From Bacillus sp. 522_BSPC (GTDB lineage: Bacteria > Bacillota > Bacilli > Bacillales > Cytobacillaceae), in the NCBI RefSeq assembly GCF_001076885.1, contig NZ_JVDT01000233.1, positions 1 to 54,123 of the forward strand: a stretch of 54,123 bases of DNA, written 5' to 3'. Position 1 is the stretch's first letter; each line of letters starts with the position of its first letter. Position numbers and translations under genes: made by a program. Below the pieces are notes generated by a model. It had not been told where the DNA came from and ran no database searches. It worked only from the letters and a program-made list of their open reading frames with translations. This document shows positions 25,379 to 32,080 of the stretch, in pieces.

Positions 25379-25831
25379 TTGACTAGAGAAGAAATTATTG
25401 AGAGTGTATCGGAAAAGATGAGATTAATACGCACAGAAGCGGGATATACCCAAGATAAGATGGCTGAGGTTATTGGTTTATCAAAAAAGACATTAGTGCA
25501 AATTGAGAAAGGCAGACTATACGCAGGTTGGTCTACTGTAGTAGCAGTTTGCGCACTTTTTAGAGAGACAGAAACGGTTCGCTTTTTATTTGGTAATGAG
25601 CCATTAGAGGTATTAGAAACAGTTGCTCGAGATGGAATGGATTATCGAAAAGAGAAAACCCTTGGTGGAAAAGTATGGTGGAGAGAAGTAGAAAAAAAGA
25701 ATGGATTTATTCTACAACAAAATATTATAAGTCAGCATTTTCGAATTATTGACGAGGACCATTTTCGAATCTTCTCTAGCTTTGAAGAAAAAGAATCAAA
25801 AGATCGTTTTAAGGAACTTAACGGCGAATAA
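25379..25831 (+). CDS. XRE-family transcriptional regulator
   Basis: 150 residues with an N-terminal helix-turn-helix of the Cro/CI type (about 10-65: MRLIRTEAGYTQDKMAEVIGLSKKTLVQIEKGR). The C-terminal half is unfamiliar and rich in charged and aromatic residues (WWREVEKKNGFILQQN, DEDHFRIF), perhaps a ligand or dimer domain. TTG start with an imperfect AAGGGA site. The target genes are unknown; flanking candidates are feoAB and the MFS exporter. Confidence 0.85.
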   Translation: MTREEIIESVSEKMRLIRTEAGYTQDKMAEVIGLSKKTLVQIEKGRLYAGWSTVVAVCALFRETETVRFLFGNEPLEVLETVARDGMDYRKEKTLGGKVWWREVEKKNGFILQQNIISQHFRIIDEDHFRIFSSFEEKESKDRFKELNGE

Positions 25832-26318: not shown

Positions 26319-27608
26319 ATGAATAAATTTACAGAAATTTTTAAAAATGCGAGCTTTACCAGACTATTTATAGCCAATGTCACATCACAAATGGGGAGTG
26401 TTATTGGTTTAACAGCTTTCATGTTTTATATTCTTGATCGTTTCTCAGAGCAGCCATCTTATGCCACGATAACGGAATTAATGTTTTCCTTGCCAACGCT
26501 AGCCGTGTTTTTTCTTGTTGGAGTAGTGGCAGATCGACTAGATCGCCAGAAGATTGCTTACCATTGTGAGATGATAGCAGCAGCCATGTCTCTATGCTTA
26601 TTAGGGGCAGTTTCCACTGGCTGGATGCCACTTATCTTTCTCACTTTATTTATTCGAAGTGCTGTTCAGAAATTCTTTTTTCCTGCAGAACAAGGCATTC
26701 TTCAAGGGGTATTAAGAAAAGAGGACTATACAACCGCAGCAGGACTTAATCAATTCATTAATAGTGTCTTTATGCTATTCGGTAATGCGATTGGTATATT
26801 CGTATATTGGACATTGGGGATTTATGGAGCGATAGTAGTTGATGTTGTTACTTTAACGATAAGTGGGCTTCTCATTAAGTCAATGAAGCTGAGTGAAGAA
26901 ATTCGACAACCAAATGGCACCCACTCGTTAAAAGACTTAAATATTCAATTTATATGGAGTGACTTTATGATTGGTCTAAAGTACATACTCTCTAATATAT
27001 TATTATTAGCATTAATTTATGGATTTATTGCATTTGGGGTTGTAAATGGTGGATTTAGTGTGATGCAAGTATTTATTTTGAAATATAAATTAGCTCCTGA
27101 TAATTATGAACAAGTATCAATTTATTTGGGAATTGTCTTTGGTGCAGGAGTAATGATTGGAAGCTTCCTTTCTTCTCTTCTTACCCAAAAGGTAAAATTA
27201 TTTAAGCTGATTATAATCGGAGCATTTTATATTGCTGTTATGACAATTCTAGCGTCATATGCCACAAATGTCCTATTCTTTTTAACGATTTGTTTCTTAT
27301 TAGCATTGGGGTTACCGATGATTAATATTGCAATTGGTGGATGGATGCCAACCATTATAGAGCCGAAAATGATGGGAAGGGTACAAGGCTGGATTACCCC
27401 GCTAATGATGCTGTCACAGTCCATTACGCTTGGGATTATTTCAATCGGCTATCCTAAATGGTTTTCTATAGAGATAATTTATTGGTTTGTGGGCACATGT
27501 TTTCTTATTGTTGGTGGCTATTACAGTTTAGTATTGCCAAGATTAGCAAGAGAAAAGGAAGCAAAAGAAAAGTTAGCTGGGAAAAAAGAGGTTCAACTAA
27601 ATTATTAA
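26319..27608 (+). CDS. MFS exporter (macrolide-efflux-like)
   Basis: A 429-residue protein with twelve predicted membrane segments and the MFS loop motif GVVADRLDRQKIAY between helices 2 and 3. It resembles the MFS_3/MefA branch of drug and macrolide exporters (SFTRLFIANVTSQMGS at the start). It ends in a charged tail. Downstream, after a new promoter, is the bmrCD exporter, so this stretch is a small efflux cluster. The substrate is not known. Confidence 0.88.
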   Translation: MNKFTEIFKNASFTRLFIANVTSQMGSVIGLTAFMFYILDRFSEQPSYATITELMFSLPTLAVFFLVGVVADRLDRQKIAYHCEMIAAAMSLCLLGAVSTGWMPLIFLTLFIRSAVQKFFFPAEQGILQGVLRKEDYTTAAGLNQFINSVFMLFGNAIGIFVYWTLGIYGAIVVDVVTLTISGLLIKSMKLSEEIRQPNGTHSLKDLNIQFIWSDFMIGLKYILSNILLLALIYGFIAFGVVNGGFSVMQVFILKYKLAPDNYEQVSIYLGIVFGAGVMIGSFLSSLLTQKVKLFKLIIIGAFYIAVMTILASYATNVLFFLTICFLLALGLPMINIAIGGWMPTIIEPKMMGRVQGWITPLMMLSQSITLGIISIGYPKWFSIEIIYWFVGTCFLIVGGYYSLVLPRLAREKEAKEKLAGKKEVQLNY

Positions 27609-27636: not shown

Positions 27637-27665
27637 TTGACTTTATAAAAACTACGTGTTAATCT
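27637..27665 (+). promoter_or_regulatory. sigma-A promoter of the bmr leader
   Basis: TTGACT, 17 bp, TAATCT, about 45 bases before the leader-peptide ATG. Confidence 0.65.
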
Positions 27666-27707
27666 CATTTATATTGGAAAATAAATGTAGAGAAAGGATG
27701 GTTACTG

Positions 27708-27779
27708 ATGAAAAGATTAAATAGATATTACTCCATTAAAACTTCATACATTGGTAACCTTCTTCTTTCTTATCGATAA
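27708..27779 (+). CDS. leader peptide of the bmrCD attenuator
   Basis: A 23-codon open frame beginning MKRLNRYYS and ending in SYR, with AAAGGA nine bases before its ATG. Codons 16-18 (GGT AAC C) form one arm of a set of repeated complementary segments, and a strong intrinsic terminator lies 60 bases downstream, before bmrC. B. subtilis bmrCD is preceded by the leader gene bmrB and controlled by ribosome-mediated attenuation; this is a shorter counterpart. Role inferred from position and structure. Confidence 0.7.
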   Translation: MKRLNRYYSIKTSYIGNLLLSYR

Positions 27780-27839
27780 TTTTTTGCAAAAAAAAAGCTG
27801 GTTGCCATTATAGGTAACCTGTGTATTTTTCTATCATCT

Positions 27840-27877
27840 AGAGATGGGTCGCATGGTTGCGGTCTGTCTCTTTTTTT
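27840..27877 (+). terminator. attenuator terminator upstream of bmrC
   Basis: Positions 27840-27853 pair continuously with 27858-27871 (14 bp including G-T wobbles) around the loop TGGT, followed by T7. GGTTGC at 27855-27860 within it can instead pair with GTAACC at 27814-27819. Confidence 0.85.
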
Positions 27878-27948
27878 GTGGGAAAATATGGAATGCGAAA
27901 AAGGGCAAAGCGTTTATTTTCTAATGAATAGTAAAGGAGGAAAAGTCG

Positions 27949-28005
27949 ATGATTGTATCAGTAAAAGAGGCGAGAAATGAGTTAAAGGATTTAGAAAGTG
28001 GCTAG
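27949..28005 (+). CDS. possible 18-codon small ORF upstream of bmrC
   Basis: Opens with ATG seven bases after an ideal AAAGGAGG, reads MIVSVKEARNELKDLESG and stops at TAG, 31 bases before bmrC. It could be a second leader peptide, or a translation-coupling ORF or gene remnant. There is no other evidence that it is made. Confidence 0.4.
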   Translation: MIVSVKEARNELKDLESG

Positions 28006-28036: not shown

Positions 28037-29797
28037 ATGTTTTCGATATTTTTTAAATTAAAATGGTTTTTTAAAGAGCATTGGAAAAGTTATACGATAG
28101 CTATAATTCTGTTAATTATTGTTGGATTTATTGAGGTATTGCCACCAAGAATTTTAGGATTGTTTATCGATGAACTAACGATTGGAACACTAACGACCAA
28201 TAAAACAATGATGTATATACTTGTTGTATCAGGAATCACAATCAGTACGTATATCATTACCTATTTTTGGATGTATAAGTTATTTGGTGGAGCAAATATC
28301 TTAGAATTGAAACTAAGAAGCAAATTTATGAATCACCTATTAAAAATGACGCCAACATTTTTTGAAAAAAATAAAACCGGAGATTTAATGGCAAGAGCAA
28401 CGAATGATTTAAAGGCAGTGTCGGTTACTGCGGGGTTTGGTATTTTAACATTGGTCGATTCCACAGTATTTATGCTGACAATTTTAATTACGATGATCAT
28501 AACAGTAAGCTGGAAATTAACACTTGCAGCGATTCTTCCACTTCCTATTATGGCAGTAATCATGAAAATATATGGGGAAAGAATCCATAAGCGGTTTATG
28601 GAAGCACAGGATGCTTTTGGTGATATGAATGATAGTGTCTTGCAGTCTGTTTCAGGAGTACGCGTGATTCGTGCATATGTTTTAGAAAAAGAAGAAGAAA
28701 AACAATTTCATCATTTCACAGAAGATGTGTTCAAAAAGAACTTGCGTGTTGCTAAAATAGATTCTTTATTCGACCCTACTATACGAATTCTTGTTGGGTT
28801 AAGCTATTTAATTGGTCTTGGCTATGGAGCTTATCTAGTATTCCAGCAACAGTTAACAATTGGGCAGCTTGTTACATTTAATGTGTATTTAGGAATGATT
28901 GTTTGGCCAATGTTTGCAGTGGGGGAATTAATGAATATCATGCAGCGCGGAAATGCTTCTTTAGATCGGGTGCAGGAAACATTAAGCTACAAAGCGGATG
29001 TCATCAGTTCGGGAAGTGGAAATGGACTGGGTGTTCCAGAAATTATCCAGTTAAAGGATGTGCAATTTCAATACCCATCATCTAAACAAGAAAATCTTCG
29101 TGATATTTATTTAACCATCAGAAGAGGAGAAACCGTTGGGATTGTTGGTAAAACAGGAAGTGGGAAAACGACAATTATAAAGCAGCTCCTTAGAGAATAT
29201 CCAAAAGGGGAAGGGAAGCTTGAGATTAACGGGAATAGCATTGATTCGATCGATTTACATACGTTAAGAGGTTGGATTGGCTATGTTCCCCAAGATCATG
29301 TTCTTTTTTCAAAAACAGTGAAAGAGAATATCTTATTTGGAAAAGAAAATGCTACGGAAAAAGAATTGGAGGAAGCAATTAGCCTTGCCTCTTTTAAACA
29401 GGATATTGATATGCTTCCAGAAGGGTTAAAGACACTTGTTGGGGAAAAAGGAGTCGCATTATCTGGCGGGCAAAAACAGCGTATATCGATTGCCAGAGCC
29501 CTTATCCGTAAGCCGGAAATTTTAATATTAGATGATTCTTTATCAGCGGTAGATGCAAAAACGGAGCAAAAGATTATTTCGAATATAAAGCAGGAACGCC
29601 AAGCAAAAACAACGATTATTACAACACATCGTATGACAGCTGTGCAACATGCTGACCATATTATCGTAATGGAAGATGGTTATATCATAGAGCATGGAAC
29701 ACATGATGAGCTAATGGATTTGAATGGCTGGTACAAAGAACAATATATTACGCAACAGACGAAAGCAGAATCTGAAGAAGTGGAGGTGCAAGCATGA
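28037..29797 (+). CDS. bmrC: heterodimeric multidrug ABC exporter subunit BmrC
   Basis: A 586-residue half-transporter with six membrane helices (about 15-310) and a C-terminal ATPase. It strongly resembles B. subtilis BmrC (YheI), including KNKTGDLMARATNDL and IMQRGNASLDRV. Walker A is GKTGSGKTT and the signature LSGGQKQR. Walker B reads ILILDDSLSAVDA with Asp in place of the catalytic Glu, the degenerate-site hallmark of this heterodimer class. The gene overlaps bmrD by four bases. Control is by the upstream attenuator. Confidence 0.95.
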   Translation: MFSIFFKLKWFFKEHWKSYTIAIILLIIVGFIEVLPPRILGLFIDELTIGTLTTNKTMMYILVVSGITISTYIITYFWMYKLFGGANILELKLRSKFMNHLLKMTPTFFEKNKTGDLMARATNDLKAVSVTAGFGILTLVDSTVFMLTILITMIITVSWKLTLAAILPLPIMAVIMKIYGERIHKRFMEAQDAFGDMNDSVLQSVSGVRVIRAYVLEKEEEKQFHHFTEDVFKKNLRVAKIDSLFDPTIRILVGLSYLIGLGYGAYLVFQQQLTIGQLVTFNVYLGMIVWPMFAVGELMNIMQRGNASLDRVQETLSYKADVISSGSGNGLGVPEIIQLKDVQFQYPSSKQENLRDIYLTIRRGETVGIVGKTGSGKTTIIKQLLREYPKGEGKLEINGNSIDSIDLHTLRGWIGYVPQDHVLFSKTVKENILFGKENATEKELEEAISLASFKQDIDMLPEGLKTLVGEKGVALSGGQKQRISIARALIRKPEILILDDSLSAVDAKTEQKIISNIKQERQAKTTIITTHRMTAVQHADHIIVMEDGYIIEHGTHDELMDLNGWYKEQYITQQTKAESEEVEVQA

Positions 29798-31806
29798 CTA
29801 CTGGACAACGTTTATTTCGATATGCATGGAGCTTTAAAGGAATAATTCTTACTGCGCTACTCATGCTGACAATTGCTGTTATCGCCGACCTTGCAGGACC
29901 GTTTGTTGCAAAAAAAGTAATTGATGATCATATAACAGGGATTGAATCCCTTTGGTATCAAACAGAACCAACTAGCGATGCAGTAGAATATAACGGGAAT
30001 TTTTACAAAAAAGCTGAATACCTTGATTTAGATGAAGAAATGCTTGCAGAAGCTAGAATTCTTCAGGTTGGAAGACAATTTCTTTTTGTAGATGGCACTA
30101 TTTCCTTTGATGGAAGTCGACAATTTGCGAATGGCACACTGACAATCAGCAGAGAGGGAGAAATGGCAACCTATCCCGCTACTGCTTTAACTCGAACGGA
30201 AGTATTTGATTTTTATAAGCCAGAAATTATGCCTATTTTAAAGCTTTTATCTTTTTATTTTGGATTAGTTATTATTTCTGCCATATTCCAATACGGCCAG
30301 CATTACTTATTACAAAAGTCAGCAAACCGAATTATTCAAAAAATGCGGGAAGACGTATTTGCGCAAATTCAGCGGTTGCCGATCAAATATTTTGATAATC
30401 TTCCTGCTGGTAAAGTAGTTGCCAGAGTAACAAATGACACAGAGGCAATTAGGGAGCTATATGTAACAGTACTCTCGAATTTCTTTTCAAGTGGAATTAA
30501 CATTATCGGAATTTATATTGCCCTGTTTATTTTGAATCCGCCTCTTGCAGCGATATGTTTAATTCTTCTTCCCATTTTATATATATGGATGATTGGCTAC
30601 CGCAAATTTGCGTCTAGATATAATCATGTGATTCGTGCAAAAATTAGTGATATTAATGGAATGGTGAACGAATCTATTCAAGGAATGCATATCATTCAAG
30701 CCTTTGGCAAAGAAAAGCAAACAAGGGAAGAATTTGAGGATTTAAATAAGGAGCATTTTCGCTTTCAAAATAAGATGCTCCATTTAAATAGTCTTACCTC
30801 CCATAATTTGGTGAATGTATTAAGAAACATAGTATTTGTCGTGTTTATTTGGTATATTGCAGGTCAATCTTTAACAGCAACAACGGCTCTTTCTCTTGGG
30901 ATGCTCTATGCATTTGTTGATTATATTAATCGTCTTTTTCAGCCGGTACAAGGGATTGTCAATCAATTGGCTAATTTAGAGCAAGCTCTTGTTGCAGGGG
31001 AACGAGTATTTGAATTATTAGATGAAGATGGAATTGATGTGAAGGATGTTACACTAGGACGCTATAAAGGGAATGTAACGTTTGATCAAGTAAACTTTGC
31101 CTATAAAGATAATGATTATGTATTGAAAAATATCTCTTTTGAAGCAAAGCAAGGAGAAACAGTCGCATTAGTAGGTCATACTGGATCTGGAAAAAGCTCT
31201 ATTATGAATCTATTATTCCGGTTCTATGATATTCAATCAGGGAAGATTACGATAGATGGAAAAGATATCATGTCTATTTCCAAGCAAGATCTTCGTAAAT
31301 ATATGGGAATTGTTCTTCAAGATCCGTTCCTCTTTACTGGAACAATCGCCTCAAATGTAACGTTAAATGACCCATCCATATCAAGGGCAACCGTGGAGAA
31401 AGCATTAAAGGATGTAGGTGCAGATAGGGTATTAAAGCATTTAGAAAAGGGATACGATGAGCCAGTAATTGAAAAGGGAAGTACGCTTTCTAGTGGGCAA
31501 AGACAGCTAATTTCCTTTGCCAGAGCGCTTGCTTTTGATCCAGCGATTCTTATTTTAGATGAAGCAACAAGCAGTATTGATACGGAAACAGAACAAATCA
31601 TTCAACATGCGATGGAAGTACTAAAGGAAGGCAGAACGACCTTTATCATTGCCCATCGACTATCAACGATTCGGAATGCTGATCAAATTATCGTACTTGA
31701 TCATGGAGAAATCATCGAAAAAGGCAATCATGATGAATTGATGGGATTAAAAGGAAAATATTATCATATGTATCAGTTGCAGCAAGGGGAGAGTTTAGCA
31801 GGATAA
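29794..31806 (+). CDS. bmrD: heterodimeric multidrug ABC exporter subunit BmrD
   Basis: A 670-residue partner of BmrC, matching BmrD (YheH) in size. Between the first and second membrane helices it has a large extracytoplasmic insertion (about 45-145), as in BmrD. The ATPase has Walker A GHTGSGKSS, signature LSSGQRQL and Walker B ILILDEATSSID with the catalytic Glu, so BmrD supplies the hydrolysing site and its altered signature serves the degenerate one. It is translated by ATGA overlap with bmrC. Confidence 0.95.
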   Translation: MTTGQRLFRYAWSFKGIILTALLMLTIAVIADLAGPFVAKKVIDDHITGIESLWYQTEPTSDAVEYNGNFYKKAEYLDLDEEMLAEARILQVGRQFLFVDGTISFDGSRQFANGTLTISREGEMATYPATALTRTEVFDFYKPEIMPILKLLSFYFGLVIISAIFQYGQHYLLQKSANRIIQKMREDVFAQIQRLPIKYFDNLPAGKVVARVTNDTEAIRELYVTVLSNFFSSGINIIGIYIALFILNPPLAAICLILLPILYIWMIGYRKFASRYNHVIRAKISDINGMVNESIQGMHIIQAFGKEKQTREEFEDLNKEHFRFQNKMLHLNSLTSHNLVNVLRNIVFVVFIWYIAGQSLTATTALSLGMLYAFVDYINRLFQPVQGIVNQLANLEQALVAGERVFELLDEDGIDVKDVTLGRYKGNVTFDQVNFAYKDNDYVLKNISFEAKQGETVALVGHTGSGKSSIMNLLFRFYDIQSGKITIDGKDIMSISKQDLRKYMGIVLQDPFLFTGTIASNVTLNDPSISRATVEKALKDVGADRVLKHLEKGYDEPVIEKGSTLSSGQRQLISFARALAFDPAILILDEATSSIDTETEQIIQHAMEVLKEGRTTFIIAHRLSTIRNADQIIVLDHGEIIEKGNHDELMGLKGKYYHMYQLQQGESLAG

Positions 31807-31876: not shown

Positions 31877-32080
31877 TTAGCCTTGAAATCCACCTAGTTG
31901 CTTTTCAGCCATTTGTACTAAGCGTTTTGTAATTTCTCCACCAACAGATCCGTTAGCGCGAGAAGTAGTTTCTGCACCTAGGTTTACACCGAATTCAGAT
32001 GCAATTTCGTATTTCATTTGGTCTAGAGCTTGAGATACTCCTGGTACTAATAGTTGATTTGAAGAATTGTTGTTTGCCAT
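31877..32080 (-). CDS. alpha/beta-type small acid-soluble spore protein
   Basis: A 67-residue DNA-binding protein that coats spore DNA and is degraded at germination. The GPR protease site is YEIASE, and the second conserved block is [18 protein letters not shown]. 63 of 67 residues equal the second SASP gene of this window; they differ in AEKQ against AEQQ and in the last three residues. The gene has a long leader and a sigma-G-like promoter. Confidence 0.97.

Follow-up and report, generated by a model that had tools for sequence, protein, structure and literature searches.

A probable strand relay between two terminators, and a putative second leader peptide, in the attenuator of the bmrCD drug-pump operon

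The question raised by this locus is how its bmrCD operon is controlled and, if the leader in front of it is a ribosome-mediated attenuator, how that attenuator is built. A stretch of 54,123 nucleotides (the window) was analyzed. It contains two ABC half-transporter genes on the plus strand, bmrC (28037..29797) and bmrD (29794..31806). Their best solved relatives by sequence, the top PDB sequence matches, are Bacillus subtilis YheI (BmrC; E 3.8e-247) and YheH (BmrD; E 2.8e-265). The leader lies immediately 5' of these two genes, as a bmrB-type attenuator requires. The original prediction had named it a bmrCD attenuator, and this identity is borne out by the two relatives and by four pairings, A·B, B·C, C·D, and D·E, that are described below. 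The leader finding is real and is more general than had been predicted. The logic proposed for the leader was largely right, but the design is wider: the terminator-like nature of C·D in most annotated relatives had been missed, as had a second conserved uORF. It is probable that bmrCD is governed by a ribosome-mediated transcription attenuator in the form of a strand relay, together with a second leader peptide, uORF2, that would act on translation or stability.

The type of attenuator is known from B. subtilis, where bmrB is the attenuator of the same operon (Reilman et al., PMC4191407). There, bmrB is 162 bp long, has a GTG start, and ends 119 bp before bmrC. It contains a terminator inside the ORF and a predicted anti-terminator and anti-anti-terminator, which together give three alternative structures (PMC4191407). 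The B. subtilis bmrCD genes are induced by lincomycin, erythromycin, and chloramphenicol, and the induction by lincomycin is lost when translation of the leader is blocked. The bmrCD promoter is also under the control of AbrB (PMC4191407).

The BmrC protein of the window is 91% identical to BmrC of Niallia circulans NBRC 13626 and, judged by this identity, the genome evidently belongs to the genus Niallia. Within the family, all of the genomes searched (193 of 193) have a BmrC match at E <= 0.001, paralogues included; of 299 genomes sampled from the order, 256 have one at E <= 1e-150. Upstream of the leader there is an MFS efflux-like gene (26319-27608), which sits between the leader and a helix-turn-helix-like gene (25379-25831, identified by eye). 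In Niallia nealsonii (L014), the end of a protein very similar to the helix-turn-helix-like one abuts the leader and no MFS gene lies between them. On the minus strand 3' of bmrD is a 67-aa ORF (31877-32080), which presumably resembles a small acid-soluble spore protein. No comparable uORF was found in the 330 nt examined at another ABC gene of the same genome (G000:C141:1130). No covariance-model matches to Rfam were obtained in the window at gathering scores.

The promoter, read from the sequence at 27637..27665 on the plus strand, consists of TTGACT (27637-27642), a 17-nt spacer, and TAATCT (27660-27665), and a similar promoter is visible ahead of many of the printed relatives. It is followed on the same strand by uORF1 (27708..27779), a putative attenuator leader peptide of 23 codons with an ATG start, MKRLNRYYSIKTSYIGNLLLSYR, also read from the sequence. 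The leader thus has what a ribosome-mediated attenuator needs, a short leader ORF with a ribosome-binding site ahead of an intrinsic terminator. Five segments of the plus strand can pair. Segment A (27690..27710) holds the Shine-Dalgarno and start codon of uORF1, with the core GGTTAC at 27700-27705. Segment B (27749..27771) is the last third of uORF1, with the core GGTAACC at 27753-27759 (codons 16-18), and is a partner of A or C. Segment C (27800..27807, core GGTTGCC at 27800-27806) is a partner of B or D. Segment D with its UGUG extension (27813..27823, core GGTAACC at 27813-27819) is a partner of C or E, and it also forms the 3' arm of a weakened terminator, T1. Segment E (27850..27860, core GGTTGC at 27855-27860) is the top of the intrinsic terminator T2 (27840..27877), a 14-bp hairpin (27840-27853/27858-27871) followed by a U-run. 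The promoter, the 23-codon ORF, and the letters and positions of all five segments had been predicted before, and all of them hold on direct reading of the sequence.

Two of the pairings are present as predicted but are longer. The A·B pairing has an inner helix of 11 bp that includes the start codon (27700-27710/27749-27759) and an outer helix of 9 bp (27690-27698/27763-27771). D·E has ten pairs with U27854 bulged, made up of 27814-27819/27855-27860 and 27820-27823/27850-27853 (UGUG/CGCA), and has an energy of -12.3 kcal/mol in the window. Its two-helix shape is kept with different letters across lineages. The window has GUAACCUGUG (GUAACC UGUG) with CGCA[U]GGUUGC, N. nealsonii (L014) has GUAACA[G]AUGC with GCAUUGUUGC, and a leader of the Mesobacillus group g15 (L051) has CGUG(A)CGUGUG with CGCAUG(C)CGCG.

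A stretch within uORF1, ACTTCATAC (27741-27749, codons T-S-Y), recurs as A[CT]T[TGA][CA]ATA[TC] in 84 of 159 uORF1s from 20 of 47 lineage groups; 59 of the 84 copies are in frame 0. The background for this pattern is about 4% in shuffles and 2 of 159 in reversed sequences. The stretch could be a stall motif or a polymerase pause site.

Leaders of relatives were collected so that the pairings could be compared. A total of 206 leaders were processed by script, 156 distinct by their last 300 nt and 50 more, and about 100 were printed and viewed. Pairs of T1 and T2 were picked by hairpin energy and U-run cut-offs, without use of D·E. Under these cut-offs both hairpins could be annotated in 167 of the 206 leaders, which entered the swap tests. 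A uORF1 of 18-41 aa with a Shine-Dalgarno is present in 159 of these 167. Nearly all Rossellomorea leaders are without a usable T1/T2 pair. Nineteen leaders were re-annotated with T2 recognized by motif and no U-run demanded of C·D; 17 gave a pair, and L100 and L107 gave none. Seven annotated leaders were dropped by eye (L086, L130, L153, L165, L170, L200, and L206), and L147 and L155 were without a pair. Five further leaders were dropped, L219 and L227 as duplicates and L230, L236, and L237 for unclear or other terminators. L012 was retained with a doubtful C·D, and L264 was excluded from the leader set. An alignment of Niallia leaders comprises four rows, two of them identical, and was kept out of the counts.

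The single leader already folds more stably than expected. Positions 27672-27885 have a folding z of -4.36, none of 200 dinucleotide shuffles was equally stable, and the minimum-energy fold consists of A·B, C·D, and the terminator. The segments might be chance complementarities of an AT-rich leader with the hairpin an ordinary terminator. A chain of at least five linked helices in a single sequence is indeed not beyond chance, being reached by 51 of 500 dinucleotide shuffles, and was not counted as support. It is the comparison across lineages, and not the single-sequence pattern, that places the pairing chain above chance. In the swap test, the duplex energy of the leader's own partners was compared with that of partners from other lineage groups, with the groups permuted; this is not phylogenetic covariation. 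The lineage groups are interrelated and some are a single sequence, so that the p values, with a floor of 2e-5 set by 50,000 permutations, are only guides. The own C·D partners gave -17.5 versus -9.2 when swapped (z -19.8, 49 of 49 groups), A·B gave -18.0 versus -12.8 (z -14.9, 45 of 47), and B·C gave -13.1 versus -10.0 (z -10.3, 44 of 49). For C against B inside uORF1, z was -11.7 in 44 of 47 groups. The D·E signal is the weakest of the four, at -8.6 versus -7.3 (z -4.9, p 2e-5, at the floor, 35 of 49 groups); an earlier D·E test with 19 groups only had given p 0.023. Own partners thus beat swapped ones for all four pairings, with p 2e-5 for B·C, C·D, and D·E, while the control pairings were flat (C·E z 0.9, p 0.82; A·C p 0.78; A·E p 0.27) and D against the base of T2 was worse than swapped (z 3.4).

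Mutually exclusive helices, shared by neighboring segments, appear to be kept by matching changes, as seen by swap tests rather than by phylogenetic covariation. A lack of covariation of B-C, C-D, and D-E had been named as what would overturn the attenuator; run as a swap test, it was not observed. These tests, over 47-49 lineage groups, contradict chance complementarity, and that explanation is hardly credible.

The way in which the pairings could act was explored by partition-function folding of the growing transcript of the window leader, with the ribosome absent, early, or late on uORF1. Without a ribosome, A·B forms with a probability of 0.99 and C·D of about 1.0, and T2 forms once possible. 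A ribosome near the uORF1 stop gives the same result. When the ribosome sits on the first codons, B·C is at 0.95-0.98, and at transcript ends 27860-27866 D·E is at 0.87-0.97 and T2 at 0.00-0.05. At end 27866 with A masked, B·C is 0.95, D·E 0.87-0.92, and T2 0.05; at the same end T2 has a probability of 0.64 if no ribosome is present and of 0.72 if the ribosome is late on uORF1. In the folding model of the window, the predicted logic of ribosome position is reproduced to this extent, with an early ribosome favoring B·C and D·E and no ribosome or a late one favoring C·D and T2. It does not extend to the finished hairpin. Under an early ribosome T2 reaches 0.30 at end 27868, and from 27870 on it beats D·E at equilibrium. 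Because T2 wins at equilibrium once complete, antitermination would have to be kinetic. The polymerase covers roughly the last dozen bases of the transcript.

Equilibrium folding was also applied to 159 relatives. A T1 switch above 0.2 was found in 62 of them and a T2 switch in 35. By group, the T1 switch is present in 19 of 47 and the T2 switch in 13 of 47, with both in nine and one group reversed for T2. The mean switch of the Niallia group is 0.45 for T1 and 0.05 for T2, and in the folding model any T2 switch in this group would have to be kinetic. The equilibrium folding of relatives lends partial support to a ribosome-position switch and is at the same time the main weakness of the model.

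The relatives usually have, in this order, the promoter, uORF1, two successive hairpins that are each followed by a U-run (C·D as T1, then T2), uORF2, and bmrC. In 162 of the 167 annotated leaders, the eight bases after C·D include at least four T, which was a selection criterion for most of them, and the strength of T2 is likewise partly built into the annotation criteria. The outer arm of T1 is degraded in the window (GCAAA versus GCACA in the close relative L003). C·D is here a 7-bp hairpin of -9.3 kcal/mol with a weak U-run (27826-27830), and T2 has -16.9 kcal/mol. Since T1 of the window is degraded and weak and T2 is stronger, the single terminator of the original prediction corresponds to T2, and C·D is a reduced T1.

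Variants of this order were seen. L093, a genome of group g19 (Neobacillus group), has the promoter followed directly by T2 and uORF2, with uORF1 and segments A-D missing. L122-L129, from seven genomes of group g11 and one of g19, precede a BmrC-type gene that has diverged further (59-60% identical). They carry GATGCATGC-type hairpins and end with a uORF2-like peptide (LLDSG, LLDGG, LLDCG, LLNSG, or SLDSG). L041, L200, L252, and L254 have a repeat-like stretch with GGAAATCAAC between the terminators and uORF2, and uORF2 still adjoins bmrC.

With two terminators in line, a plain attenuator of the trp-like, four-strand kind has to be weighed. Here A·B, B·C, and C·D would act at T1, T2 would be a leaky back-up, and the similarity of D to E would come from GC-rich hairpin tops. 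The U-rich letters after C·D in those 162 of 167 leaders (again, a criterion for most) would suit this, as would the D·E signal, which is by far the lowest of the four and does not exceed swapped partners in 14 of 49 groups (g2, g22, f47, and the Sutcliffiella group f11, for example). However, own D·E partners do beat swapped ones (p 2e-5) and C·E partners do not, and T2 of the window is a better terminator than T1. Passing T1 alone would also be expected to gain little where T2 is strong. The four-strand attenuator is thus an unlikely account. The preferred reading is a relay, in which T1 and T2 would be coupled by the shared strand D, since D contributes the 3' arm to T1 and also competes with T2. 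Such a relay would be needed where T2 is stable, because opening T1 alone would leave the polymerase blocked.

Beyond T2 and before bmrC lies uORF2, which had not been predicted. It occupies 27933..28005 of the plus strand including its Shine-Dalgarno, AAAGGAGG (27933-27940), and it reads MIVSVKEARNELKDLESG-TAG (27949-28005). The pattern at its end, GAYYTNGARRGNGGNTAG, has its sole exact match in the 5.14-Mb genome here, with no mismatch allowed. After further duplicates and those shorter than 300 nt were removed, 200 leaders were left for the count. One ORF was picked per leader with its sequence ignored (8-45 codons, the best Shine-Dalgarno of at least five letters, and an end 8-95 nt before bmrC). 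By this rule 161 of 200 leaders have a uORF2. It ends in TAG in 154 of them and in TAA in seven, whereas the uORF1 stops, taken as a control, are TAA in 97, TGA in 44, and TAG in 18 (n=159). The last residue is Gly in 155 of the 161, the one before it is Gly or Ser in 145, and the one further back is Glu or Asp in 143. A total of 139 fit the motif [DE]-[GS]-Gly-UAG, and at least one such uORF2 was found in 41 of 58 groups. Much of the remainder has relaxed ends, such as LFG in f47, KSG, TGGG, PASG, and LDGT. By the criterion used, uORF2 is absent from 39 of 200 leaders (15 of g19, seven of g8 (Neobacillus), two of g17, five of g15, and others). Among these 39, four of the five g15 leaders have a motif ORF more than 95 nt from bmrC, and L102, L253, and L261 have one that the Shine-Dalgarno cut missed. 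The comparison supports the pairings, the tandem terminators, and this second uORF.

The conserved end could belong to an RNA element, such as a protein-binding or pairing site, rather than to a peptide; the region is rich in G, and an RNA motif could account for the fixed stop triplet. The letters vary at third codon positions, though. The last Gly of the 139 motif uORF2s uses all four codons (GGC 62, GGA 35, GGT 27, and GGG 15), and where Ser precedes it, the codon is AGY in 59 and TCA or TCT in two. Of the 139, 119 are also 18 or 19 codons long. An RNA element is accordingly very improbable. Since Gly uses all four codons and Ser both AGY and TCN, the constraint on the end of uORF2 appears to be on the peptide, and uORF2 looks like a selected peptide, perhaps one that is read at its own stop codon.

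A plainer rival is that uORF2 serves translational coupling only, with the ribosome ending there and restarting on bmrC and the peptide being irrelevant. The uORF2 stop lies a median of 18 nt from the bmrC Shine-Dalgarno, so that a terminating ribosome would park just short of it. Coupling has no need for a given C-terminus or for TAG, yet these leaders conserve the last three residues and the stop codon but not the third positions of the codons. In most leaders of g11 (Cytobacillus group), moreover, the stop is 75-86 nt before bmrC and the motif is retained. Coupling as the only function is unlikely, though less so than the RNA element. Our best guess is that the uORF2 peptide slows its own release at UAG.

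An ermC-like translational attenuator, in which uORF2 would hide the bmrC Shine-Dalgarno, was considered and is not supported as a general design, as no general masking was found. The bmrC Shine-Dalgarno had a mean unpaired probability of 0.60 in 139 leaders when uORF2 was free, and of 0.53 in 129 leaders when a ribosome occupied the uORF2 stop. By eye, in the last 80 nt before bmrC of most of L015-L025 (Cytobacillus group), the DGG codons of uORF2 could also serve as the Shine-Dalgarno of another tiny ORF, the third in the leader. Alternative hairpins, two in number, might expose or mask the bmrC Shine-Dalgarno there, possibly as an extra translational attenuator of this lineage. Many lineages (for example L029, L034, L045, L155, and L224) have one more short hairpin, the third, just 5' of the uORF2 Shine-Dalgarno, with TTTTCTATATAAA-like letters after it. 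A loosely defined TATA-like string is present upstream of uORF2 in 71 of 139 leaders versus 20% in shuffles.

Competing strands 1:2, 2:3, and 3:4 that are read by ribosome position are the classic arrangement of the E. coli trp and his leaders, and the same order is found here. Unlike in trp and his, a fifth strand here joins the first terminator to the second, and by default the uORF can sequester its own start. The published description of bmrB has one terminator in a 53-codon GTG ORF (PMC4191407), whereas most annotated relatives here have two terminators, and the design includes four chained pairings and a second uORF besides a short uORF1 that starts with ATG. The window does not have a terminator inside such an ORF; its uORF1 ends at 27779, 60 nt before T2.

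A genome of the B. subtilis group (L267) was compared with this description. No genome identical to YheI was present among the 397 searched, and the best was 94%; L267 has 94% identity to the YheI N-terminus over 101 aa and is not strain 168. It has a GTG ORF of 52 codons that ends 126 nt before bmrC and resembles published bmrB in start codon, length, and position. Its uORF1, MPRNLCVYQTVSYWRGKPYVLFD, is in another frame and has a strong Shine-Dalgarno; segment A is GGGTTTGC there versus GCAAACCC for B, and an ORF ending KIEGG-TGA lies 24 nt before bmrC. It may be that the leader ORF of B. subtilis was placed in the wrong frame. The published start mutant of bmrB also lost alternative starts and ribosome-binding sites (PMC4191407), and for that reason would not separate the two frames.

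Other leaders share parts of the design. The vmlR leader of B. subtilis has a uORF in an anti-antiterminator, an antiterminator, a terminator, and drug-dependent stalling (PMC9226507), and is like the bmrCD leaders in its uORF, competing structures, and two control layers. It differs in that it has one uORF and its second layer is a hairpin hiding the vmlR Shine-Dalgarno; the accessible portion of that paper does not describe tandem terminators. The ermB leader likewise has two leader ORFs before one resistance gene (PMC8274638), but the paper is titled as translational attenuation and its accessible portion does not state a conserved stop-codon signature. The main text of a 2010 attenuator survey (PMC2965389) does not include yheI, yheH, or yheJ. 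In the literature searched, mostly open-access papers, nothing was found on a second uORF before bmrC, on tandem terminators in such leaders, or on a Gly-Gly/UAG stop-codon leader, and no description of a two-terminator relay or of a second leader peptide was found.

We infer stalling, readthrough, and a role for uORF2 as follows. By default, uORF1 would close itself through A·B, C would pair with D, and T2 would form. A ribosome at the end of uORF1 would cover B, with the same outcome of C·D and T2. A ribosome held early in uORF1, for example by a drug, would cover A, so that B takes C and D is released. Free D could then pair with E at the top of T2 while that hairpin is still incomplete, and the polymerase could pass. 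The decision would be kinetic, with D holding E while the U-run is copied. In most annotated relatives C·D is itself terminator-like (T1), so that a single early event would open both terminators one after the other; T2 would do the work in the window, where T1 is weakened. Transcripts that get through would carry uORF2 next to bmrC, with the C-terminus [DE]-[GS]-Gly-UAG conserved as protein. This second leader peptide would be read at its stop codon and would act on the translation or stability of bmrCD.

More tentatively, and as a possibility that is less likely than not, two leader peptides may guard the pump operon across many Bacillales-like families. The first, uORF1, would sense elongation blocks and open two terminators by relay. 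The second, uORF2, would be a stop-codon sensor that slows release by RF1, reports impaired termination, and gates the translation or stability of the message. For bmrCD, drug sensing by attenuation is already known, from one species and with three structures. Should the comparison hold, the shared design would be a relay in which a strand freed from the first terminator disarms the second. The very strict stop preference of uORF2, with TAG in 154 of 161, would also offer a direct way to learn whether release-factor-dependent stalling regulates a drug pump.
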